Shown: positions 2,641 to 14,693 of the stretch, piece after piece
How the letters are laid out: each line of letters starts with the position of its first letter
Position numbering within the stretch: the first letter of the stretch is position 1
Origin: Bacteriovoracaceae bacterium
GTDB taxonomy: Bacteria > Bdellovibrionota > Bacteriovoracia > Bacteriovoracales > Bacteriovoracaceae
Reading direction: 5' to 3'
Assembly: GCA_023137315.1 (NCBI GenBank)
Contig: JAGLPP010000019.1
Coordinates: forward strand, 68,949 to 132,948
Length of the DNA stretch: 64,000 bases
Program-made: the position numbers and the translations under genes
The notes under the pieces: model-generated
What the model saw: the letters and a program-made list of their open reading frames with translations, nothing else
The model's database searches: none
Told to the model about the DNA's origin: nothing

Positions 2641-3588
2641 TTGGACTTGGAAAAAGTATATAACATACACAAATCAGTACTTCAGAAGGAATGCCTGGCA
2701 TTTTTATCAGAGAATTTTAGCCAGGAAAGTCGTGGTTGGTTCGCCGACCTGACTTTTGGGGCTGGAGGTCACTCAATTGCATTTTTAAAGAATTTTCATG
2801 AAGCAAAGTTGATTGCTGTGGATCAGGATATTGATGCTATTAAAAATGGATACATTAAAATTGAGGAGGAGGGACTTCAATCAAGACTTCATTTGCATCA
2901 TACTAATTTTGTGGATTTTCCAAAACTTATTGCTGAAAAATATCAATTTATTATTGATGAATACAAGGGATTCGCAGGGATTTTGTTGGATCTTGGGGTC
3001 TCTTCACATCAATTTGATTGCGCCTCAAGAGGTTTTTCTTTTCGGAAGGAAGGAAATCTGGATATGAGAATGAATCAAAGTGATGATATGGCCGAAACGG
3101 CAGCTGATCTGGTGAATAACCTGAGCAAGTTGGAACTGGAAGATGTGATAAAAACTTATGGTGAGGAAAGATTTGCAAAAAAAATTGCCGGCCGTATTGT
3201 GGATGCCAGATTGGAAAAGCCAATACAGACAACAAAAGAACTGGAAAATATTATTTTTCATAGCTATCCGGCGAAATTAAGAAATGGACGAATTCATCCT
3301 GCCACGCGAACATTTCAGGCCTTGCGATTGGCCGTGAATCAGGAATTAAAAGTATTGTCGGATGTATTGCCATTATTGGCGAAAATGCTTTCAGATGGTG
3401 GAAGGTTGATGGTGATCAGCTTTCATTCATTGGAAGACAGGATTGTTAAGCATACTTTTCGCAATATTGCTCCAAAGGGTGGAGAATATAATATACTGAC
3501 CAAAAGGCCCATAACTCCATCAGATAATGAAATTAAAGAGAATTTTCGTGCAAGAAGTGCTAAAATGAGGGTGTTGCAAAAAAATTAA
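2641..3588 (+). CDS. rsmH: 16S rRNA (cytosine(1402)-N4)-methyltransferase RsmH (MraW)
   Basis: Methylates N4 of C1402 in the ribosomal P site and is the usual first or second gene of the dcw cluster. The 315-residue product has the SAM-binding DLTFGAGGHS motif at residues 36-45, DLGVSSHQFD near 116, and RIHPATRTFQALRLAVN and ISFHSLEDRIVK further on, all RsmH signatures. A TTG start is used: the family N-terminus (HxxVLxxE) aligns with residues 10-17, leaving no room for a later start, and no ATG lies nearby. No mraZ precedes it, unlike in most dcw clusters. Confidence 0.96.
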   Translation: MDLEKVYNIHKSVLQKECLAFLSENFSQESRGWFADLTFGAGGHSIAFLKNFHEAKLIAVDQDIDAIKNGYIKIEEEGLQSRLHLHHTNFVDFPKLIAEKYQFIIDEYKGFAGILLDLGVSSHQFDCASRGFSFRKEGNLDMRMNQSDDMAETAADLVNNLSKLELEDVIKTYGEERFAKKIAGRIVDARLEKPIQTTKELENIIFHSYPAKLRNGRIHPATRTFQALRLAVNQELKVLSDVLPLLAKMLSDGGRLMVISFHSLEDRIVKHTFRNIAPKGGEYNILTKRPITPSDNEIKENFRARSAKMRVLQKN

Positions 3589-3604
3589 AATCCAGGGAGA
3601 GGAT

Positions 3605-3934
3605 ATGTTTGCAAGAAGCAAGAAACCTGTAAAAAAAGAGTCGTTCAGGATTTTGCATACTGTGAAAAAAATTTTATTCCATTCACAGGGATTTCCGATT
3701 TTTTTGGTTTGTGCTGTTTTGGCAATATTGTTTGTTTTATTTCGAATGAAGGTTGTTGAAATTAATTATGGTATACATTCTTTAAATGAGAAAACTTCCA
3801 GGACAAAATTAGAACATAAAGGGCTTAGTGCCAAAAAGGCGCGACTTCTTTCGGTAAAAAATCTTCAAAAGATTGCGAAGAAATACAAGTTAAGTCAACC
3901 GAAGAGGAAACAGATTATTGTTATCCCAAAGTAA
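3605..3934 (+). CDS. ftsL: FtsL-like divisome protein
   Basis: A 109-residue bitopic membrane protein in the fixed ftsL position between rsmH and ftsI. It has a basic cytoplasmic N-terminus (residues 1-30), one transmembrane segment at about 31-47 (FPIFLVCAVLAILFVLF) and a periplasmic helical tail rich in Lys, Leu and Glu that could form the short FtsL coiled coil. ENLQKIAKKY-type endings are typical of FtsL; here it reads VKNLQKIAKKYKL. FtsL sequences are poorly conserved, so identity rests on size, topology and position. It would bridge FtsQ and FtsW/FtsI at the septum. Start ATG 3605 follows an AGGGAGAGG-like ribosome binding site. Confidence 0.85.
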   Translation: MFARSKKPVKKESFRILHTVKKILFHSQGFPIFLVCAVLAILFVLFRMKVVEINYGIHSLNEKTSRTKLEHKGLSAKKARLLSVKNLQKIAKKYKLSQPKRKQIIVIPK

Positions 3935-3940
3935 ATTTTA

Positions 3941-5851
3941 ATGAATAACGAAAGAAAAAAAATATTTTTTATTTTTGTTGTGTTCGCGGCATTGTTTTTT
4001 TTGTTATTATGCCGGGCCTTTCAATTACAAGTAATTAATCGAAAGGAATTAATTGCATATTCTGAAAGTCAGACACTTCGAACAAGCAAGGTTTATCCTT
4101 TCAGGGGAAACATCTACGACAGGAATGGTTCTCCACTGGCTATTAATATCCAGACCTATAGCATTTTTACAATTCCTAAAAACGTCAAAGGCGGAATAGG
4201 GTATTATAAAAAACTGGCAGATATTGTTCCAAAACTTTCTTTTTCAAAGATCAAAAAAAAACTGTTCAATAGAAAACGCTATACATGGCTGGCTAGGAAA
4301 ATAACGTTGACGAAAGAGCAGGTGGAAAGGATTAAAAAATTGCAGGGTATTTACATCGAATCGGTTCCAAAAAGATTGTATCCCAATCACGAACTGTTAT
4401 CCCAGGTACTTGGTTTTACCGGCATCGACAACAATGGGCTGGCGGGATTGGAATATTTATTTGATAAGGAGCTTAGTGGAAAACCAAAGATTACAAAATA
4501 TATACAGGATGCCAAGGGAAGAGCACTAAAGTTTGAAAGTCAGGAAATTGGTGGCGATGCACAGAATTTACGATTGACCATTGATAAGGATCTTCAGTCA
4601 GTTGCGGAGAAATTCCTAAAGCTTGCCGTGAAAAAATATAAGGCAGTTGGTGGTGGAATTGGAATAATGAATCCGGAAACAGGTGGCATACTGGCCGTTG
4701 CCAATTATCCAACCTATGATGCGAACAAATTACATCTATCGACGCCGAAAAACAGAAAGCTTGCCTTTGTTTCTGATCCGCTTGAGCCCGGATCGGTTTT
4801 CAAGGCCCTTACAGTTGTTTCCGCATTGGAAAATAAAATAATCAGACCGGATACAAATTATTATTGTGAAAAAGGAAAATTAAAAATTGATAACCATATT
4901 ATCGGGGAAGCTGAACAGAATAAGCATTATGAATGGTTGTCAGTTAATGAAATTATGAAATACAGTTCAAACATAGGTGTGACAAAAATTGCATTTGATC
5001 TTACATTTCCCGTGTTTGATGAAACATTGCGGAAATTTCATATTGGCAGGAAAACAGGCATAGAACTTCCTGGAGAGTCCCGTGGAATATATAATTTTGG
5101 AAAAAATGTTTCACCACTTAGCTTGAGTAATATAAGCTTCGGACAGGGTCTTGCCACAACAGGCATACAAATGTTGGCCGCATATTCCTCAATAGCAAAC
5201 GGTGGAAAATATGTCAGACCTACAATTTTTTTGGATCAGGAACAAAGCAACAAGGGGAAGAGGATATTCTCAAAGGATACCGCATCGGAACTGGTGAAAA
5301 TGCTTGTTTCCGTTGTTGAAGAGGGTACCGGGAGTAATGCACGTATACCGTCTTTCGTGATGGCCGGGAAGACAAGTACCGCACAAAGACCGGCGTCAAA
5401 CGGCGGATATGATGGTTACATTCCAGGATTCATAGGATTTCCGGTGAATGTGAAGAATAAATTTGTAATTTATGTTTACGTGGATGGGCCCAAGGGGGCA
5501 AGTTACTATGGAAATACTGTTGCGGCACCGGTATTCCGGGAAGTTGCAAAGTATGTACTTTATAAAAATAAAGAATTTAGCAACATGGTAAAATATGCAA
5601 AAGAAAAAGATCTTAATTATCTTGATTTTGTAAAAACCAGTAAATCATCCACAAGAACCAACGGGCCTGATGTATTGCCGAATTTCATAGGACTGGACAA
5701 AATTTCGGCCTGGAATATCTTTTCAAAGTTGAATTTTAAAGTACGTCACAAGGGGATTGGAATTGTCAGAAGACAGCATCCCAAACCAGGACAGAGAATT
5801 AATGATAAAACAGTTGTAACACTTTATTACGAGCCTCCGGAATATGAATAA
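3941..5851 (+). CDS. ftsI: Peptidoglycan D,D-transpeptidase FtsI (PBP3) with PASTA domain
   Basis: Septal class B penicillin-binding protein that crosslinks new peptidoglycan with FtsW. The 636 residues comprise a membrane anchor (about 8-24), a dimerisation domain opening with RGNIYDRNGSPLA (55-67) and a transpeptidase domain. That domain has SVFK (Ser285 nucleophile), SSN (342-344) and, where KTG is expected, KTS (477-479, in AGKTSTAQ). A C-terminal PASTA domain occupies about 578-630, beginning VLPNFIG. PASTA is common in Gram-positive and delta-proteobacterial FtsI but absent from the E. coli protein. Its last 8 bases overlap the start of murE, implying coupled translation. Confidence 0.96.
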   Translation: MNNERKKIFFIFVVFAALFFLLLCRAFQLQVINRKELIAYSESQTLRTSKVYPFRGNIYDRNGSPLAINIQTYSIFTIPKNVKGGIGYYKKLADIVPKLSFSKIKKKLFNRKRYTWLARKITLTKEQVERIKKLQGIYIESVPKRLYPNHELLSQVLGFTGIDNNGLAGLEYLFDKELSGKPKITKYIQDAKGRALKFESQEIGGDAQNLRLTIDKDLQSVAEKFLKLAVKKYKAVGGGIGIMNPETGGILAVANYPTYDANKLHLSTPKNRKLAFVSDPLEPGSVFKALTVVSALENKIIRPDTNYYCEKGKLKIDNHIIGEAEQNKHYEWLSVNEIMKYSSNIGVTKIAFDLTFPVFDETLRKFHIGRKTGIELPGESRGIYNFGKNVSPLSLSNISFGQGLATTGIQMLAAYSSIANGGKYVRPTIFLDQEQSNKGKRIFSKDTASELVKMLVSVVEEGTGSNARIPSFVMAGKTSTAQRPASNGGYDGYIPGFIGFPVNVKNKFVIYVYVDGPKGASYYGNTVAAPVFREVAKYVLYKNKEFSNMVKYAKEKDLNYLDFVKTSKSSTRTNGPDVLPNFIGLDKISAWNIFSKLNFKVRHKGIGIVRRQHPKPGQRINDKTVVTLYYEPPEYE

Positions 5852-7265
5852 GATCGAATTCCCAGGATTAATCGCTTCATTTATAAGGAAATCAACGGAA
5901 ATTCAGGATAATTTTATTTGCAAGGGAGTAACATCTAATTTGCAGGAGGCAATGGACGGGGACATTGTTTTTTATAAAATCAGTGAGCAAAAAAGAGCAA
6001 AAAAAATTTTCATCGATAGATTAAGCAAGGCAGGTAAGTGTTTTTTGATATTGAATCAGATTCCACCGGAAATAAACGATCGTCCCAATACAATTTCCAT
6101 TGAGATCAGTTCTTTTCCAGAGGTGGAGAAAAGAATTCTTGATATATTTTATCCTCTTGACAAAAAAAAATTAAAAATCGTTGGTGTTACTGGTACGAAT
6201 GGAAAGACAACAGTCGTGAATCTGGCCAGGAAAATTTCTCTGCAGATGGGCAAGAGGGCCGCATCACTTGGAACGTTGGGATATATTGATGAAGATGGCA
6301 ATCAGGAACTGGCATCTGGAAATACCACGCCCTCCTATATAGAAATAAGAAAAATTCTTAACAGTATTCAGAACAGGATGGATGTTATTTTTATGGAGGT
6401 AAGCAGCCATGCGTTGTCACAAGGCAGACTTGGGGATATATGTTTTGATCAGTGCGCATGGACAAGCTTTTCGCAGGATCATTTGGACTATCATGCAGAT
6501 ATGAATGAATATTTTAATGCAAAAATAAAATTACTCAATATGCATTTAAGTACGGACGGGGTTTGTCTGGTACCGCCGGGGGAACGCAGTTTAATTGATA
6601 AATTAATGGATTCATGTCCTGACAGGATCGAACTTGTGGCGACAATTGCTGAAAGGAATCTTGAAAATCAGTTGCCAGGACACCTTGACACCTGTTTTAA
6701 CCGCTCAAATCTTGAATTGGCACTTGGAATATGTGAAAAGCTGTGGAACGAATTGGGGGAAATAAATTTTAAAAATCTACGACCACCCAAGGGAAGATTT
6801 TCTCAAATTAATGTTGGCGATGGAGTTGTCATTATTGATTATGCACATACACCAGATGCGCTTGAAAATATATGCAGTGCCATAAGGAAGGATTTTAAAA
6901 GGAGAAAATTTACAGTATTGTTTGGTTGTGGTGGAAATCGTGATCGTGGTAAAAGGCCGCAAATGGGACAAGTTGCGATGAAATATGCGGATAGAATTAT
7001 TGTTACATCCGATAATCCACGGTTTGAAAGTCCAATGGACATTATTAGCGATATTGTGGCCGGCATGGATAATAAAAATGGAGTAATGATAATTGAAAAC
7101 AGAAAACAGGCAATTTTAGAGGCACTGGGGAGCATGTCCACCAGCGAGATACTTCTTCTTGCCGGAAAGGGGCATGAAATATATCAGGATATAGACGGCA
7201 AAAAAAATAAATTCAGTGAATTTGATATTGTAAATGAATTTAAAAAGAGTTGTAGCAATGGTTGA
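5844..7265 (+). CDS. murE: UDP-MurNAc-tripeptide synthetase MurE (meso-DAP adding)
   Basis: Adds the third stem-peptide residue to UDP-MurNAc-L-Ala-D-Glu. All Mur ligase hallmarks are intact in the 473 residues: GTNGKTT at 117-123 (ATP), EVSSHAL at 185-191, DHLDYH at 212-217 with the downstream lysine in FNAKIKL, DYAHTPDAL at 332-340 and GCGGNRDRGKRP at 361-371. DNPR at 390-393 is the recognition motif that selects meso-diaminopimelate over lysine, so the wall is predicted to be the A1-gamma DAP type. The gene overlaps ftsI upstream and murF downstream by a few bases. Confidence 0.97.
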   Translation: MNKIEFPGLIASFIRKSTEIQDNFICKGVTSNLQEAMDGDIVFYKISEQKRAKKIFIDRLSKAGKCFLILNQIPPEINDRPNTISIEISSFPEVEKRILDIFYPLDKKKLKIVGVTGTNGKTTVVNLARKISLQMGKRAASLGTLGYIDEDGNQELASGNTTPSYIEIRKILNSIQNRMDVIFMEVSSHALSQGRLGDICFDQCAWTSFSQDHLDYHADMNEYFNAKIKLLNMHLSTDGVCLVPPGERSLIDKLMDSCPDRIELVATIAERNLENQLPGHLDTCFNRSNLELALGICEKLWNELGEINFKNLRPPKGRFSQINVGDGVVIIDYAHTPDALENICSAIRKDFKRRKFTVLFGCGGNRDRGKRPQMGQVAMKYADRIIVTSDNPRFESPMDIISDIVAGMDNKNGVMIIENRKQAILEALGSMSTSEILLLAGKGHEIYQDIDGKKNKFSEFDIVNEFKKSCSNG

Positions 7266-8658
7266 ATCAAAAATAATTTTTAACGTTCCAGGGATAATAA
7301 AAGTTTCAAAAAATGAAATATGCGGTAAATTTTTAATAAGTACCAATACAAGAAATTGTACAAGTGATGATGTTTTTGTGGCCCTGAAAGGGCCCAGTTT
7401 TGATGGATTTAATTTTATTAAAAATGCCATTGAAAAAAAATGTTCAATTATCGTTTATAATCATGAAAGTAAAACTGTAAAAGTTGTGGAAAATTTCATA
7501 AAACAAAATCCGGAAGTTTGTTTTATTGGTGTGGAAAACACGGAAAAATATCTTCAATTAATAGCAAAATCCCATGCGCAATCCCTCAGAAAAAACGGGA
7601 AATTAAAATTTGTTATTGGGATAACCGGTTCCAACGGCAAGACAACCACAAAAAACATGCTTTTTCACATTTTAAGTGAATCACTGGGAGACTTGGTTGG
7701 AGGCAATATTGGAAGCTTCAATAATCATATAGGTGTTCCTCTTACATTATTGGGACTGGATGAAAAAAAAGAAGTGGTGATTGTTGAAATGGGATCAAAT
7801 CATCCTGGTGAAATTAAGTTTTTATGTGATATTGCCGGACCGAATGCCGGGATTATTACCAACATTGGTGATGCACATCTTGAGTTTTTCAGGGACAAAG
7901 ATGGTATTTTTCTGGAAAAAAGAACATTGTTTGACGAGGTAATGGACAATACTGAAAATGATGGTTTTTTTGTCACCAATGCCGATGATGATTACCTGAA
8001 GATATTACCGAAAAAAAATAATCATTTAAAATCAAGTGTGGATAACGGTGATATAAAAATCGATATTTCCCGGAATACTGCCGTATTAAAAACAGAAAAT
8101 GATTGTTTTGAATTGAGAAACGAAAATATTACGGGACACCATAACTTTCTTAATTTGTCCTTATCCTTTCTGATGGCGCAAATGTTATATCCATCCAAGA
8201 TGGATACCACGCTTGCGGCCGCATCCACCTTTAAACCAACCTCCAACCGCTCACAATGGGTTGATAAATGGAAAAAAAAGATTTTTTTGGATGCGTATAA
8301 TGCCAATCCATCATCAATGATTGCCTCCGTTGAGGCTTTTTTGGCCCGGAGTGAATCTGAAGGAGTGAACATCGGTGAATGTTTATTGATTTTAGGTGAT
8401 ATGAATGAATTGGGTGATGAATCACGAAAATTACATATTGAATTGGGAAAAACTCTAAAGAAAAAGGGGGTTAAAAATCCAATATTTGTTGGTAAGCATT
8501 CTTGTGATTATGAGTTTGGTTATCAGTTGGAGTGTAAAATCTTCCAATCGACTGAAAAATTGGTAAAAAACTGGAAAAAAATCATTTCGAGGTACAAATA
8601 TATCCTTATTAAGGGGAGTCGAACTTTACAACTGGAGTTGTTACTGGATATAAATTAA
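7258..8658 (+). CDS. murF: UDP-MurNAc-tripeptide--D-Ala-D-Ala ligase MurF
   Basis: Adds D-Ala-D-Ala to complete the UDP-MurNAc-pentapeptide. The 466 residues show GITGSNGKTTTK (P-loop 124-130), EMGSNHPGEI, a NIGDAHLE motif carrying the conserved His, the lysine in FLEKRTLF and LGDMNELG near the C-terminus, all standard for MurF. ATG 7258 overlaps the murE stop and follows an AAGAG sequence; an upstream TTG at 7234 is less likely because the added residues match nothing in the family. No ddl gene is near, so the dipeptide substrate must come from an enzyme encoded elsewhere. Confidence 0.96.
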   Translation: MVESKIIFNVPGIIKVSKNEICGKFLISTNTRNCTSDDVFVALKGPSFDGFNFIKNAIEKKCSIIVYNHESKTVKVVENFIKQNPEVCFIGVENTEKYLQLIAKSHAQSLRKNGKLKFVIGITGSNGKTTTKNMLFHILSESLGDLVGGNIGSFNNHIGVPLTLLGLDEKKEVVIVEMGSNHPGEIKFLCDIAGPNAGIITNIGDAHLEFFRDKDGIFLEKRTLFDEVMDNTENDGFFVTNADDDYLKILPKKNNHLKSSVDNGDIKIDISRNTAVLKTENDCFELRNENITGHHNFLNLSLSFLMAQMLYPSKMDTTLAAASTFKPTSNRSQWVDKWKKKIFLDAYNANPSSMIASVEAFLARSESEGVNIGECLLILGDMNELGDESRKLHIELGKTLKKKGVKNPIFVGKHSCDYEFGYQLECKIFQSTEKLVKNWKKIISRYKYILIKGSRTLQLELLLDIN

Positions 8659-8695: not shown

Positions 8696-9772
8696 ATGTT
8701 TTACCATTTATTTTATCCGCTAAGCGCAGATTATTCTGCTTTTAATGTTTTTCGATATATCACTTTTCGCTCTATCTTTGCATTTATGCTGGCAGCACTT
8801 GTCTCCATTATCTGGGGAAAGAAATTCATACAATTTATGCGCAACAAACAGTTTGGACAGATTATTCGAAGTGACGGCCCGGAGAGTCATTTTTGTAAGG
8901 CCGGAACGCCAACGATGGGTGGCTGTGTCATTCTTGGTAGTTTGCTTGTTGCTCTTCTTTTTTGTGGAAATTTTGTTTCATATCCGGTCCTGATAACCTT
9001 GTTTGTGACTGTTTCCTTCTTTGTATTGGGGTTTATCGATGATTACCTCAAGGTATTAAAAAATGATCCAAAGGGAGTATCGGCCAAAGGCAAGTTGTTG
9101 TGGCAATTTATTACAGGGCTTACCGTTGGGTTGTTGATTTATCATCTCAATATTACGGATACGAAGCTTTATATTCCGTTTGTTAAGGATCCGATTATTG
9201 ATTTTGGGTTTTTTTACATATTTTTTGTCGCCTTTGTTATAGTTGCATCAAGCAATGCGGTGAATCTTACAGATGGTCTTGATGGCCTGGCAATTGGTCC
9301 GGTAGTCACCAGCTCTGCCAGTTTGGGACTTTTGGCATATGTATCAGGGCATTCCGAAATTTCTGCTTATCTTTTTGTTCCATATGTTGAAAATGTTGGA
9401 GAGTTGATGGTGATCGCTTTTGCGGTTATTGGAGCTGGAGTCGGTTTTCTTTGGTACAACTCATATCCGGCCCAAATTTTTATGGGAGATTCCGGGTCTT
9501 TGTTTCTTGGAGGTTTGCTGGGAACTCTCGCGGTTGTAACTAAAAATGAGATACTTTATATCGTCATTGGCGGTATTTTTGTTGTTGAAGCAGTATCAGT
9601 GATTTTACAGGTAGGGTCATATAAATTAAGAAAGAAAAGAATATTCAAGATGGCACCAATACATCATCACTTTGAATTAAATGGCTGGCCTGAACCAAAG
9701 GTTATTGTCAGATTCTGGATAGTGAGTATGTTTCTTGCTATTTTGGCCATCGCAACCTTGAAAACAAGATAA
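8696..9772 (+). CDS. mraY: Phospho-MurNAc-pentapeptide transferase MraY
   Basis: Transfers phospho-MurNAc-pentapeptide to undecaprenyl phosphate to make lipid I. The 358-residue polytopic protein (about ten membrane spans) has the family landmarks GTPTMGG, FIDDYLK, NLTDGLDGLA, MGDSGSL and PIHHHFE, which carry the catalytic aspartates and the His cluster. Length is as expected (about 360). It lies 37 bp after murF and 20 bp before murD in one transcription unit. Confidence 0.97.
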   Translation: MFYHLFYPLSADYSAFNVFRYITFRSIFAFMLAALVSIIWGKKFIQFMRNKQFGQIIRSDGPESHFCKAGTPTMGGCVILGSLLVALLFCGNFVSYPVLITLFVTVSFFVLGFIDDYLKVLKNDPKGVSAKGKLLWQFITGLTVGLLIYHLNITDTKLYIPFVKDPIIDFGFFYIFFVAFVIVASSNAVNLTDGLDGLAIGPVVTSSASLGLLAYVSGHSEISAYLFVPYVENVGELMVIAFAVIGAGVGFLWYNSYPAQIFMGDSGSLFLGGLLGTLAVVTKNEILYIVIGGIFVVEAVSVILQVGSYKLRKKRIFKMAPIHHHFELNGWPEPKVIVRFWIVSMFLAILAIATLKTR

Positions 9773-9792: not shown

Positions 9793-11175
9793 ATGGAACG
9801 TTTTAAAAATAAGAAGATTCTCATTGTTGGAGTAGGAAAAACAGGTTTTGCTTTAATTCGCTTTTTTCATTCACTTGATTGCGAAATCAAGGTTACGGAT
9901 ATTAAACCTATTTTTGATTTGAACAAGGCGGTAAAAAAATTAAAGAAACTTAGTCCACCACCACAAATGACATTTGGTGAGCATGTTGAAGATGATTTTC
10001 TTGAAGCAGACGTTATTGTTTATTCGTCGGGTGTAAGATCTGATTTACCTCAATTGGAATTTGCAAGAAGAAATGGCAAGGAAGTTTATGGTGAATTTGC
10101 GCTTGCCAATAAATTATGTAACAAACCAATTATTGCGGTATGTGGTACCTATGGAAGAAGCACTGTTGCCCATATGATAGGTTTTATGCTCAGGATGGAG
10201 GGGAAAAATGTTTTTGTTGCTGGAACGAGCGAGGAACCATTTATTAATTATGCATATTCTGCCAATAAGGATGAAGTTGATTATGTAATTGTAGAGGTTT
10301 CAGCAAATCAATTATTGTGTTTGGAAAATTTTCATCCACGTCTTGTAGTATTTACCGGTATTGGGGAAAAATATCCGGAAACGTATTTTAACTCCATGGG
10401 TGGGTATATTGAAACAAAATTAAGCATTATCAAGGCCATGTCGCCGGATGATTTTTTGATTGTTAATTTTGACAAGCTTGGAAATAATACATTTTTTAGA
10501 AATGCCAATTGTCAGACATACTGGTACTCGAGAAAATCATTTGTAAAATTGGGAATGGTCAATGAAATTCAGGGTACCCATTTTCATGAAAGAAGAATAC
10601 ATTCCAATATTCATTGTCATTCAGAATTTAAAGTTTCATCAATGCGAATTGTAGGCCAGGAAAATCGCGAAAATCTTTTGGCGGCAATTACGGCATGCAA
10701 GGCCTTGGATGTTTCAGAAAAATCAATTCAGACATGCATAGAAAAGTTTCCTGGAATTCCCCATCGTTTGGAGTTTCTCATTGAGAAGAATGGGGTGCGT
10801 TTTTATAATGATTCAAAGTCAGAGGATATGGATCATCTGATAAAAAGTGTAAATTCGTTTAAAACACCGGTCATTCTGATTGCTGGTGGGAAGGATGAAG
10901 AGGAAGTTGATTATGAATTGTATGCTGATGATATTATAAAAAGTGTCAGGGTTCTGGTATTGGTTGGAGAGTGTAAGGAAAGAATGAACAGATGTTTTGG
11001 CAGTCATGGTCAAACTTATATTGTGGGTTCTTTTGAGGAATCAATTCTTTTGGCTTATCAGAAATCAAGAACCGGAGATACAATTATTCTTTCTCCTGGA
11101 AATAGTAGTAAGGATTTTTTCAGGGACTATGAGGAAAGAGGTAATTACTTCAAGAAACTCGTATATCAGCTATAG
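9793..11175 (+). CDS. murD: MurD-family UDP-MurNAc-L-Ala--D-Glu ligase with altered active site
   Basis: Position between mraY and ftsW and the overall fold identify MurD, the D-Glu adding ligase. The 460 residues begin with a Rossmann GVGKTGFALIRFF motif. The C-terminal half keeps GIPHRLE, NDSKSED and the SPGNSSKDFF-x4-ERGNYF motif that contact substrate and nucleotide, and Glu in VEVSANQ and Lys in IETKLSI are kept in the middle domain. However, the P-loop reads GTYGRST (118-124) instead of GTNGKST, replacing the phosphate-binding Lys with Arg. The invariant DH pair 15-16 residues before the Lys is replaced by Lys-Tyr (in GEKYPE). It may be a much altered enzyme or one that has lost ATPase function; a second murD would then be needed elsewhere. 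Confidence 0.85.
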   Translation: MERFKNKKILIVGVGKTGFALIRFFHSLDCEIKVTDIKPIFDLNKAVKKLKKLSPPPQMTFGEHVEDDFLEADVIVYSSGVRSDLPQLEFARRNGKEVYGEFALANKLCNKPIIAVCGTYGRSTVAHMIGFMLRMEGKNVFVAGTSEEPFINYAYSANKDEVDYVIVEVSANQLLCLENFHPRLVVFTGIGEKYPETYFNSMGGYIETKLSIIKAMSPDDFLIVNFDKLGNNTFFRNANCQTYWYSRKSFVKLGMVNEIQGTHFHERRIHSNIHCHSEFKVSSMRIVGQENRENLLAAITACKALDVSEKSIQTCIEKFPGIPHRLEFLIEKNGVRFYNDSKSEDMDHLIKSVNSFKTPVILIAGGKDEEEVDYELYADDIIKSVRVLVLVGECKERMNRCFGSHGQTYIVGSFEESILLAYQKSRTGDTIILSPGNSSKDFFRDYEERGNYFKKLVYQL

Positions 11176-11247
11176 CTCCTAGATTTTACTGGTTATATCC
11201 TGCATCATTGATATACAATGTTGTTGGAAACTATTGTGGGGGTTGGC

Positions 11248-12363
11248 ATGCATGATCTTTCCGGCAATGATCTTGACAGATATTCAAAGTCACTGCTTGC
11301 CATTTTGGTGGTCATAGTTGTTCTTGGCGTTATTATGGTTTATTCAGCAAGCTATATTTATGCCAAGGAACTTTTTTTTGATTCAGCTTATTTTTTAAAG
11401 AAACAGTTATTCTTCACAGTGATTGCAGGTATGTTTGCCTGGTTGGTAAGTAAAACCAAAATTAAGTTTTGGATAAAATATGCATTCTTTTTTAATATTT
11501 TTTGTACCACAATTCTTTTTTTAACATTTATTCCTGGGGTTGGCGTAAATGTTAAAGGAGCAAGTCGTTGGATTAATATCGGTTTTATAAATTTTCAGCC
11601 CGGGGAATTTATAAAAATTTCGTTATTGCTGGCATCAATTTATTTTTTTGAAAAATTCAAATTTATGAAACGTGGAGAAATAGTTAAGAACGTTGTTTTT
11701 CTATTGCTTCCGATGATTTTTTTACTAAAACAACCGGATTTTGGTACATTTTTAATTTGTCTTCTAGTGGTTCTGTTTTCAGCCTTTATGAGTTCATTTC
11801 CAAAAAAATATTTTTATTTCATTTCGTCGCTTGGTTTTTCATTGATATTTCTTACCTTGTTTATTCAGCCTTACAGGGTTAAGCGAATACTGGCTTTTCT
11901 TGATCCATGGAAAAATGCAAAAACTTCCGGTTTTCAGATTATACAATCATATCTCGCTTTTGCGAATGGTTCATTCTGGGGGGCAGGTCTTGGCAACAGT
12001 AAGGAAAAATTATTCTATCTTCCCGAGGCACATAATGATTTTATTTTCAGTGTTGTAGGAGAGGAGTTGGGATTTTTGGGGATTGTTTTTACAATATCAC
12101 TTTTTCTGCTCTTCATATACTGTGGTCTTAAGTTGGCAGTACGCTGTCGGGACAGGTGGTCTACATTGCTGATTTCTTCAATAGTGTTTATTATTGGTCT
12201 TCAGGTGGTGATAAACATGGGAGTGGTAATGGGTGTTCTCCCGACAAAGGGACTCAATCTGCCGTTTATAAGTTATGGCGGATCATCCATGGTGGCAAAT
12301 TTTTTTGCAGTAGGGTTGGTGCTATCTTCAGTACGATATTGTAAATCTTTTGAAAAAATGTAA
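11248..12363 (+). CDS. ftsW: SEDS peptidoglycan glycosyltransferase FtsW
   Basis: Polymerises lipid II at the septum in complex with FtsI. The product has about ten membrane spans, with MVYSAS near the N-terminus, KGASRWI and FQPGEFIKI in the middle, PEAHNDFIFSVVGEELGF in the large periplasmic loop and a YGGSSM ending, all FtsW/RodA signatures. The dcw position supports FtsW over RodA. ATG 11248 is preferred because it follows a GGGGG run; ATG 11218 in the same frame would add ten residues and has no visible ribosome binding site. murG, normally the next gene, is missing; murC follows directly. Confidence 0.95.
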   Translation: MHDLSGNDLDRYSKSLLAILVVIVVLGVIMVYSASYIYAKELFFDSAYFLKKQLFFTVIAGMFAWLVSKTKIKFWIKYAFFFNIFCTTILFLTFIPGVGVNVKGASRWINIGFINFQPGEFIKISLLLASIYFFEKFKFMKRGEIVKNVVFLLLPMIFLLKQPDFGTFLICLLVVLFSAFMSSFPKKYFYFISSLGFSLIFLTLFIQPYRVKRILAFLDPWKNAKTSGFQIIQSYLAFANGSFWGAGLGNSKEKLFYLPEAHNDFIFSVVGEELGFLGIVFTISLFLLFIYCGLKLAVRCRDRWSTLLISSIVFIIGLQVVINMGVVMGVLPTKGLNLPFISYGGSSMVANFFAVGLVLSSVRYCKSFEKM

Positions 12364-12392
12364 ATTTTTCCACAAAAACACAAGGTGGTTCC

Positions 12393-13793
12393 GTGAACAG
12401 GGTCATTTTAGAGACACGTAAAGAAATCAAGGTTCATTTTGTTGGTATTGGCGGGATAGGTATGAGTGGTATCGCCGAAGTGTTGCTGACTCTTGGGTTT
12501 AAAGTTACAGGTTCCGATATGCAGGAGTCTGACTCAACAAAAAGGTTGTCCCTGCTTGGTGCTGAAATTTTTATCGGACATTATTCAGATAATGTATCCG
12601 ATGTTTCAGTAGTGGTATATACGTCAGCTGTAAGGGATGATAATCCTGAAATAATTGAGGCCAAGCGAAAGAATATTCCTGTTATCAAAAGAGCGGAAAT
12701 GCTGGCTGAATTAATGAGATTAAAGTGTGGAGTTGCAGTTGCCGGGACACACGGAAAAACGACAACGACTGGTATGTTGGCGACAATCCTGAAGGAAAAC
12801 AGTAAAGACCCTTCCTATATGATTGGTGGAGTTGTCACTAATCTGGCCGGTCATGCCAAGGTTGGAAAGGGGGATTATCTGGTTGCGGAGGCCGATGAAT
12901 CAGATGGATCATTTCTGCTTTTAAATCCGATTATGTCCATTATTACAAATATTGATGCGGATCACATGGATTACTATGGTACGAATCAAAAACTTGTTGC
13001 TGCATTTGATGAATTTGCCAATAAAATACCGTTCTTCGGTTCGTGTGCGTTGAATATTCATGACGATAATTTGATGAATATTAAAAGGAAAATGAAAAAA
13101 CCATCCGTAACATTTGGAATAGATGATGGAACAATTGAAAAGGTGGACTATCTTGCAAAAAACATAAGTCATACGTTGTCCGGTTCAATATATGACTTGT
13201 ATTATCGTAATGATTTTAAAACAAAAGTAAGAATATCCATTCCAGGAAGATATAATATTTTGAATTCCCTTGGAGCAATAGCCATATCGCATTTACTCGG
13301 AATAGACTTCGAGAGTATTTCCAGATCAATGGACAAGTTTGATGGAATAGGAAGAAGATTTAATGTCCTTTATAGTGACGATTGCATGAGTATTGTTGAC
13401 GATTATGCCCATCATCCAACTGCGATATCAACATTTTTGCGTACGCTTAAAGAAATATCCCCTGAGTCAAAAATAATTGCTCTTTTTGAGCCACACAGAT
13501 ACACACGTACCAGGGATTGTTGGAATCAATTCCATCATTGTTTCAATTATGCTGATGAACTTTATCTTGGCCCAATCTATGCTGCGAGTGAAAAGGAACT
13601 TCCGGGAATTGATTCAGAGGCTCTTAGTTGTGATATAAATAAAATACATCCCAATTTCTCAAAGGCTCTCCATGATATGTATATGATTAGAGATGTTATT
13701 CGTTCCAACCGGAATGAAAAGGTTGTAGTTGCAGCTTTTGGGGCCGGTTCGGTAAGTAAGGTGATCAAGGAAGTTGTAAAAGAATTGGAATAA
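12393..13793 (+). CDS. murC: UDP-MurNAc--L-alanine ligase MurC
   Basis: Adds L-Ala to UDP-MurNAc, the first stem-peptide step. The 466 residues show FVGIGGIGMSG (16-26), GTHGKTTTT (118-126), EADESDGSF, NIDADHMDYY with the conserved His, DDYAHHPTAI and FEPHRYTR, a complete MurC signature set. GTG 12393 is the start: it follows AAGGTGG and gives the family N-terminus. Unlike murD in the same operon, every catalytic motif is standard. Confidence 0.97.
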   Translation: MNRVILETRKEIKVHFVGIGGIGMSGIAEVLLTLGFKVTGSDMQESDSTKRLSLLGAEIFIGHYSDNVSDVSVVVYTSAVRDDNPEIIEAKRKNIPVIKRAEMLAELMRLKCGVAVAGTHGKTTTTGMLATILKENSKDPSYMIGGVVTNLAGHAKVGKGDYLVAEADESDGSFLLLNPIMSIITNIDADHMDYYGTNQKLVAAFDEFANKIPFFGSCALNIHDDNLMNIKRKMKKPSVTFGIDDGTIEKVDYLAKNISHTLSGSIYDLYYRNDFKTKVRISIPGRYNILNSLGAIAISHLLGIDFESISRSMDKFDGIGRRFNVLYSDDCMSIVDDYAHHPTAISTFLRTLKEISPESKIIALFEPHRYTRTRDCWNQFHHCFNYADELYLGPIYAASEKELPGIDSEALSCDINKIHPNFSKALHDMYMIRDVIRSNRNEKVVVAAFGAGSVSKVIKEVVKELE

Positions 13794-13796
13794 CAT

Positions 13797-14693
13797 ATGA
13801 ATTTATGTCAATTACTGGGTGGTGTGAATGAAATCAATATTGAGACACAACTCAATTTGAAAAACCACTCAACTCTTTCTTTGAAAGCATGCGGTGATCT
13901 GGTGACGATATTTACGTCCGATGCGCTTCAGAAAGTACTTGCAATTTTTAATGAGAAAAAGATCAAATTTCAAGTTCTTGGAAATGGCTCCAATATTATT
14001 TTGCCGGAGTGTTCAGATATTCCATATCTTAAATTGGATTTTATTTTTAATGAAAAAATATTTAATGAAACAAGGGAATTTTACACAGTTCCGGCATCTG
14101 CAAAATTATCACAATTGGTAACTCATGCGATTAATCGCAATCTTTCAGGATGGGAATGTATGGCCGGAATTCCGGGAACGGTTGGTGGGGCCGTGTTTAT
14201 GAATGCTGGTACCAAGCTTGGCGAGATTGGACGATTGGTAAAATGTGTAAGGGTTGTTACGAAAAGCGGAAAATTCAAGGAATATGATGTGACAATGGAA
14301 TCCTTTGCATACAGGGGAAATAATTTTTTGGAAGATGGAGATGTTGTTTACGAAGTGAAGTTGGGCCATTTGGGACAGAATGAGCGGGTTGTTGATATTA
14401 TTCGCAATGAAATTCGAACAAGAAAGAAGTGTCAGCCTGTGCATAAAAAAACCTGCGGTAGCGTGTTTAAGAATAAAATAGGTGAGAGAACTTGTCTGGC
14501 AGGACAATATATTGATATAATGGGATTCAAGGGATTTTCTGTCGGTGATTTGGAGATTAGCAAACTCCATGGAAATTTCATAATCAACCGCGGGGATGCC
14601 AACGAACACAATGTTCGAGAGCTTGTAGAAGTGGTCCAGGATGAGTTAAAACTTTACTTTGGGGTATTGTTTGAAACAGAAGTCAAACTATAA
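13797..14693 (+). CDS. murB: UDP-N-acetylenolpyruvoylglucosamine reductase MurB
   Basis: FAD-dependent reductase that makes UDP-MurNAc. The 298 residues include LGNGSNIIL (FAD binding), GIPGTVGGAVFMNAG, YRGNNF, the catalytic serine in KTCGSVFKN and the conserved Glu in the terminal FETEVKL. The size and absence of the long insert resemble the short, type II MurB. It starts 3 bp after murC, and its end overlaps the start of ftsQ by about 35 bases. Confidence 0.95.
   Translation: MNLCQLLGGVNEINIETQLNLKNHSTLSLKACGDLVTIFTSDALQKVLAIFNEKKIKFQVLGNGSNIILPECSDIPYLKLDFIFNEKIFNETREFYTVPASAKLSQLVTHAINRNLSGWECMAGIPGTVGGAVFMNAGTKLGEIGRLVKCVRVVTKSGKFKEYDVTMESFAYRGNNFLEDGDVVYEVKLGHLGQNERVVDIIRNEIRTRKKCQPVHKKTCGSVFKNKIGERTCLAGQYIDIMGFKGFSVGDLEISKLHGNFIINRGDANEHNVRELVEVVQDELKLYFGVLFETEVKL

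Follow-up and report, generated by a model that had tools for sequence, protein, structure and literature searches.

In Bacteriovoracaceae and Halobacteriovoraceae, the MurD homologue that is encoded in the dcw cluster has lost catalytic residues of the ligase, while its fold and the purifying selection acting on it are retained, the combination by which we recognize a pseudoenzyme. The sequences make it probable that this protein (MurD-A, a pseudo-MurD with an arginine in its P-loop) serves as a scaffold or regulator without catalytic activity, and that a second MurD (MurD-B), encoded elsewhere in the genome, adds D-Glu. The window, that is, the whole stretch of 64,000 nucleotides that was analysed, comes from a Bacteriovoracaceae bacterium (assembly GCA_023137315.1, contig JAGLPP010000019.1). 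An earlier note on this DNA had offered two options for the dcw protein: a ligase remodelled, perhaps for a different nucleotide or metal, or a structural pseudoenzyme of the divisome alongside a genuine MurD at another place in the genome. That a second MurD whose active site is intact occurs almost universally in the family supports the latter.

The gene (positions 9793–11175, forward strand) encodes a protein of 460 amino acids and lies between mraY (8696–9772) and ftsW (11218–12363). Upstream are murE (5844–7265; P-loop GTNGKTT) and murF (7234–8658; GSNGKTT); murC (12393–13793; GTHGKTT) directly follows ftsW and is succeeded by murB (13797–14693), all on the forward strand. The description of murC, murE and murF as canonical in the earlier note is borne out, in that all three keep GxxGKTT. 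The order mraY–murD–ftsW recurs in 72 of 80 loci, the remainder being mostly at contig ends, and the window protein groups with the dcw MurDs of the phylum (clade support of 99). A family-model search matched the protein over its full length to TIGR01087, the equivalog model of MurD, at 277.2 bits (cut-off of 211.95), which identifies it as a MurD homologue, and Pfam returned MurD-like_N, Mur_ligase_M and, weakly, Mur_ligase_C. The best matches in the PDB are MurD both by sequence and by fold, and the AlphaFold2 model (pLDDT of 87.9, pTM of 0.87) resembles MurD crystal structures (TM of 0.76/0.81 with E. coli 8v8w).

Residues were compared with those of E. coli MurD (b0088). The P-loop reads GTYGRST (10144–10164; DNA GGTACCTATGGAAGAAGCACT), which places Arg122 (codon AGA) at K115, exactly where the substitution of the lysine had been reported. 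The invariant D182-H183 pair aligns with Lys193-Tyr194 (10369–10374) within GEKYPE (from 10363), also as previously read. The Mg ligand E157 is kept as Glu168 (10294–10296), the carbamylated lysine K198 as Lys209 (10417–10419) and the ATP-side residues R302, D317 and K319 as Arg325, Asp340 and Lys342 (10765–10818); N268, N271, H301 and S415 (S439 in the window protein) are present as well. The claim that the substrate-side motifs remain is therefore only partly correct: H301, R302, D317, K319 and S415 are in place, but N138 has become Thr145 (10225–10227), T321 has become Glu344 and K348 is lost, so that, besides the P-loop, the binding sites for UMA and D-Glu have changed.

These changes are shared by the family. 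We compared 94 distinct dcw MurDs from Bacteriovoracaceae and Halobacteriovoraceae (family f1); close homologues on named contigs come from these groups, among them Halobacteriovorax marinus and Bacteriovorax stolpii. Alignment with these relatives, which the earlier note had proposed as a check, shows Arg at K115 in all 94, so none carries the lysine of the GxxGK[ST] P-loop. All six Arg codons are used at this position (AGA 42, CGT 19, CGA 16, CGC 12, AGG 4 and CGG 1), which indicates that Arg has been held by selection through codon turnover. H183 is kept in none of the 94 and is replaced without consistency (Tyr in 45, Asn in 19, Phe in 15, and others), and N138 is kept in one. E157 persists in 93, whereas K198 is kept in 58 and lost in 36. 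At the D-Glu-binding positions, K348 is found in 0 of 94, T321 is Glu in 86 and S415 is kept in 50. Of 46 positions that show no variation in either the canonical dcw MurDs or the second copies, the family's dcw MurD keeps 25, has fixed a new residue at 4 (T110C, K115R, N138T and T321E) and varies at 17; the varying positions have a conservation of 0.59, compared with a protein average of 0.78. Most residues on the adenine and ribose side are kept.

We give practically no credence to an artefact of sequencing or assembly, or to a decaying pseudogene. The window's genome is a metagenome-assembled genome (MAG) in 223 contigs, which would make such an error conceivable, but Arg at K115 in 94 of 94 proteins with six codons, His183 in 0 of 94, the origin of these sequences from independent assemblies, a dN/dS of 0.03 and the lack of internal stops in the listed dcw copies of the family refute both versions, including an error confined to the P-loop.

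A search of relatives recovered a second MurD of full length, encoded on a separate contig or at a separate locus, in almost all genomes of the family. It is present in 72 of the 75 genomes sampled (completeness of at least 90%) and in 46 of the 48 that are named; G002 and G245, whose genomes are closed or nearly so, carry both MurDs. K115, E157, H183, K198, R302, D317 and K319 are intact in all 56 distinct second copies. The three exceptions among the 75 are G032 and G266, in which the C-terminus of the second MurD is found at contig ends, and the window's own MAG; in G065 and G076, which gave no second-MurD match, the entire neighbourhood is missing. The second murD that the earlier note suggested looking for is thus present almost throughout the family, although the search of the window's own MAG (G000) found none. 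In f1, the second MurD is usually accompanied by a gene for an M24 aminopeptidase and by a divergent methyltransferase-like gene, and lies near serC. In G000, the methyltransferase-like gene runs into the end of contig C202 and about 300 bp separate the aminopeptidase gene from the end of contig C99. As the usual neighbours are cut at these ends, the second-MurD locus falls in an assembly gap, and a second MurD is likely to lie between C99 and C202; a true absence from the organism is not supported.

Some further observations concern these loci and other Mur ligases. One second MurD (L235 in G217, 3125–5272) is extended at its N-terminus by about 290 residues without a Pfam match, which may reflect either a fusion or a wrongly placed start. 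In two f7 loci (L075 and L076), the gene beside the second MurD looks MurF-like by eye and is apparently another Mur ligase. On contig C25 of G000 (L005), an Mpl-type recycling ligase (GTHGKTT by eye) directly adjoins a β-lactamase- or esterase-like open reading frame. In f1, murG is absent between ftsW and murC (12363–12393 in the window) and is encoded elsewhere in the genome (G000:C182:1911-2912 and G002:C1:447503-448501; 216–236 bits, below the NCBI cut-off of 250); it lies inside the dcw cluster in f6, f7, f8, f12, f15, f17 and f22. Both murG and the intact MurD are thus located outside the dcw cluster in f1.

Divergent second MurDs are known from Xanthomonas, and the second copy might accordingly be a MurD2-type L-Glu ligase of the MurD2/MurL route rather than a plain MurD. 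We consider this very improbable: the two second copies that were scanned exceed the TIGR01087 cut-off (312 and 259 bits), a glutamate racemase gene (murI) is present in G000, and no murL-like neighbour was recognized by eye in the family loci with listed open reading frames.

The dcw copy evolves under strong constraint. The median dN/dS between close pairs is 0.031, equal to that of MraY, and the mean pairwise identity within the family is 70.7%, compared with 68.5% for MraY, 51% for MurC, 39% for MurE, 38% for MurF and 71% for FtsA, so that no other Mur protein of the family's dcw cluster is as well conserved as MurD. We rejected the idea that this conservation is special to f1, because f6 (79.5%) and f8 (70.9%) show an equal conservation of dcw MurD and keep its catalytic set; the constraint is retained rather than new. 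It seems a fair statement that the broken dcw copy has kept the constraint of an intact dcw MurD. The second copies are far more variable, with a mean column identity of 40% compared with 75% for the dcw copies. The stretch of the dcw protein from residue 244 to residue 285 (10522–10647) is enriched in residues that never vary in the family yet do so in canonical MurDs, among them W244, R247, S249, G254, V255, F264, H265, R268, V281 and M284; this segment is a candidate contact surface.

Two other readings give the dcw protein a biochemical task in the same pathway. It could be a remodelled but active ligase that joins D-Glu or another amino acid to UDP-MurNAc-L-Ala with an Arg P-loop and an altered metal arrangement, beside an ordinary second MurD. 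The retention of E157, R302, D317, K319 and most adenine-side residues would suit such an enzyme, as would the strong purifying selection; the universal Arg and the frequent Glu at T321 suggest that new constraint acts on part of the site and, with E157, K319 and R302 in place, some nucleotide chemistry may still be possible. However, H183, D182, K348 and often K198 have given way to many residues without a consistent substitute and with no single new catalytic residue among them, which is a pattern of lost constraint and does not favour the different nucleotide or metal use that had been proposed. The carbamylated K198 is important for the activity of E. coli MurD, and its loss strongly lowers that activity (PMC4816537), so its loss from a third of the family's dcw MurDs argues against ordinary catalysis. 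With a complete MurD elsewhere in the genomes as a further count against it, we regard a remodelled ligase as improbable.

Alternatively, the dcw protein could bind the second MurD, or UMA or an adenine nucleotide, and tune the activity of the second MurD rather than serve the divisome. The near-universal co-occurrence of the two copies and the preserved adenine-side residues are consistent with such a partnership, and the fast evolution of the second copies could reflect adaptation around a fixed partner. Yet the two genes are at separate loci in all of the family genomes inspected, and dcw MurD is already equally conserved in f8, which has no second copy. We judge this regulatory partnership rather unlikely.

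Comparison across the phylum places the loss of catalytic residues in context. In the phylum sample, the only decayed MurDs were dcw copies whose genomes also encode a second MurD: the set of K115, E157, H183 and K198 is broken in 22 of 33 dcw copies from such genomes, compared with 0 of 27 from genomes without a second MurD. A sign test of second copy against decay has only four independent pairs and is underpowered. Beyond f1, the dcw MurDs of f7 (L070 and L071) are broken at E157 (to Val), K198 (to Asn or Tyr) and K319 (to Cys or Ala); those of f17 (L231 and L242) carry H183F, K198M or K198T, N138D and K319R; and one f22 genome (L259) has K198Q. Nearly all genomes of f3, f4, f8, f12, f16 and f20 have one MurD, and those examined are canonical. 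Decay amounts to three changes on the tree of dcw copies, and apparently had at least three origins. In a tree with outgroups, from which L235 was left out, the dcw copies of f1 and f17 pair as sisters (support of 97) within the clade of dcw MurDs (99), and a single origin may therefore underlie the decay in both. The second copies of f1, f6, f7 and f17 fall together (90) and nearer to proteobacterial MurDs (86), a placement that is tentative given the long branches.

Family f6, taken as Bdellovibrionaceae, also has two MurDs. In G121, taken as Bdellovibrio bacteriovorus Tiberius, K115, E157, H183 and K198 are intact in both, and both f6 copies look active by this measure. Most dcw MurDs of f6 (L063 and L247–L257) have Ala or Ser at N138, with K115, E157, H183 and K198 intact. 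One of them (L251 in G248) combines N138A with a change of K319 to Met (FYDDSMCSN) and has an intact second MurD (L233) in its genome; this is a possible case of recent decay. In another f6 genome (G210), the second MurD alone was seen, but the dcw region is partly masked.

If the dcw protein is indeed a dead scaffold or regulator, the second MurD would make UDP-MurNAc-L-Ala-D-Glu, and the dcw copy would work by protein contacts, either by keeping MraY, FtsW or Mur enzymes in one assembly or by gating the supply of precursors at division. Because the adenine-side residues remain, it may still bind nucleotide, and an adenine nucleotide or a UDP-sugar could perhaps serve as a signal. The second MurD would have been gained early, after which constraint on catalysis, but not on the other role, would have been relaxed in the dcw copy. 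A role in the divisome is plausible. There is precedent for a structural role in Thermotoga maritima, in which MurD, MurE and MurF have been reported to bind MurG and MreB (PMC6420597). A broader proposal, to which we give slightly less than an even chance, is that a non-catalytic dcw or divisome role of MurD, separable from ligation, was all that kept the dcw copy in Bdellovibrionota once catalysis had passed to a second MurD, and that the dcw copy was disabled several times independently (in f1 with f17, in f7 and in f22). We found no description of the family's dcw pseudo-MurD in the open literature (open-licence papers).

MurD is essential, and it has long been asked whether Mur ligases also form part of a wall-building complex. 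Here, two roles of MurD would have been split by nature, an intact-site version being encoded elsewhere in the genome, while the broken version has stayed in the division cluster and is the best conserved of the Mur proteins there. This opens a non-catalytic role to direct tests in predators that have been cultured, for example Halobacteriovorax and Bacteriovorax. As automatic annotation calls the dcw gene murD, work on drug targets, essentiality and metabolic models in these predators could attribute the reaction to the wrong gene.

Compared with known MurD (TIGR01087; E. coli 1UAG and 2JFG), the window protein has the same fold, length, three domains and position between mraY and ftsW, and shares E157, N268, N271, R302, D317 and K319; it differs in the P-loop Arg, in Thr at N138 and Glu at T321, and in the loss of D182-H183 and K348. 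Unlike ordinary MurD systems, the family's genomes hold an additional MurD with an intact active site. The second MurD of Bacteriovoracaceae and Bdellovibrionaceae is likewise a full-length member of the MurD family, but it keeps all catalytic residues, lies outside the dcw cluster and evolves fast. MurD2 of Xanthomonas, an active L-Glu ligase that is paired with an epimerase, is similarly a MurD-family protein unlike ordinary MurD, whereas the window protein is without the catalytic residues and no MurL was found. The Mur-ligase fold has been reused in new roles in MurT/GatD and other proteins, MurT being an active ATP-dependent enzyme encoded outside dcw; in the Bacteriovoracaceae the fold also appears to have been put to another purpose, but here it is the ancestral dcw gene itself that has lost its catalytic residues.
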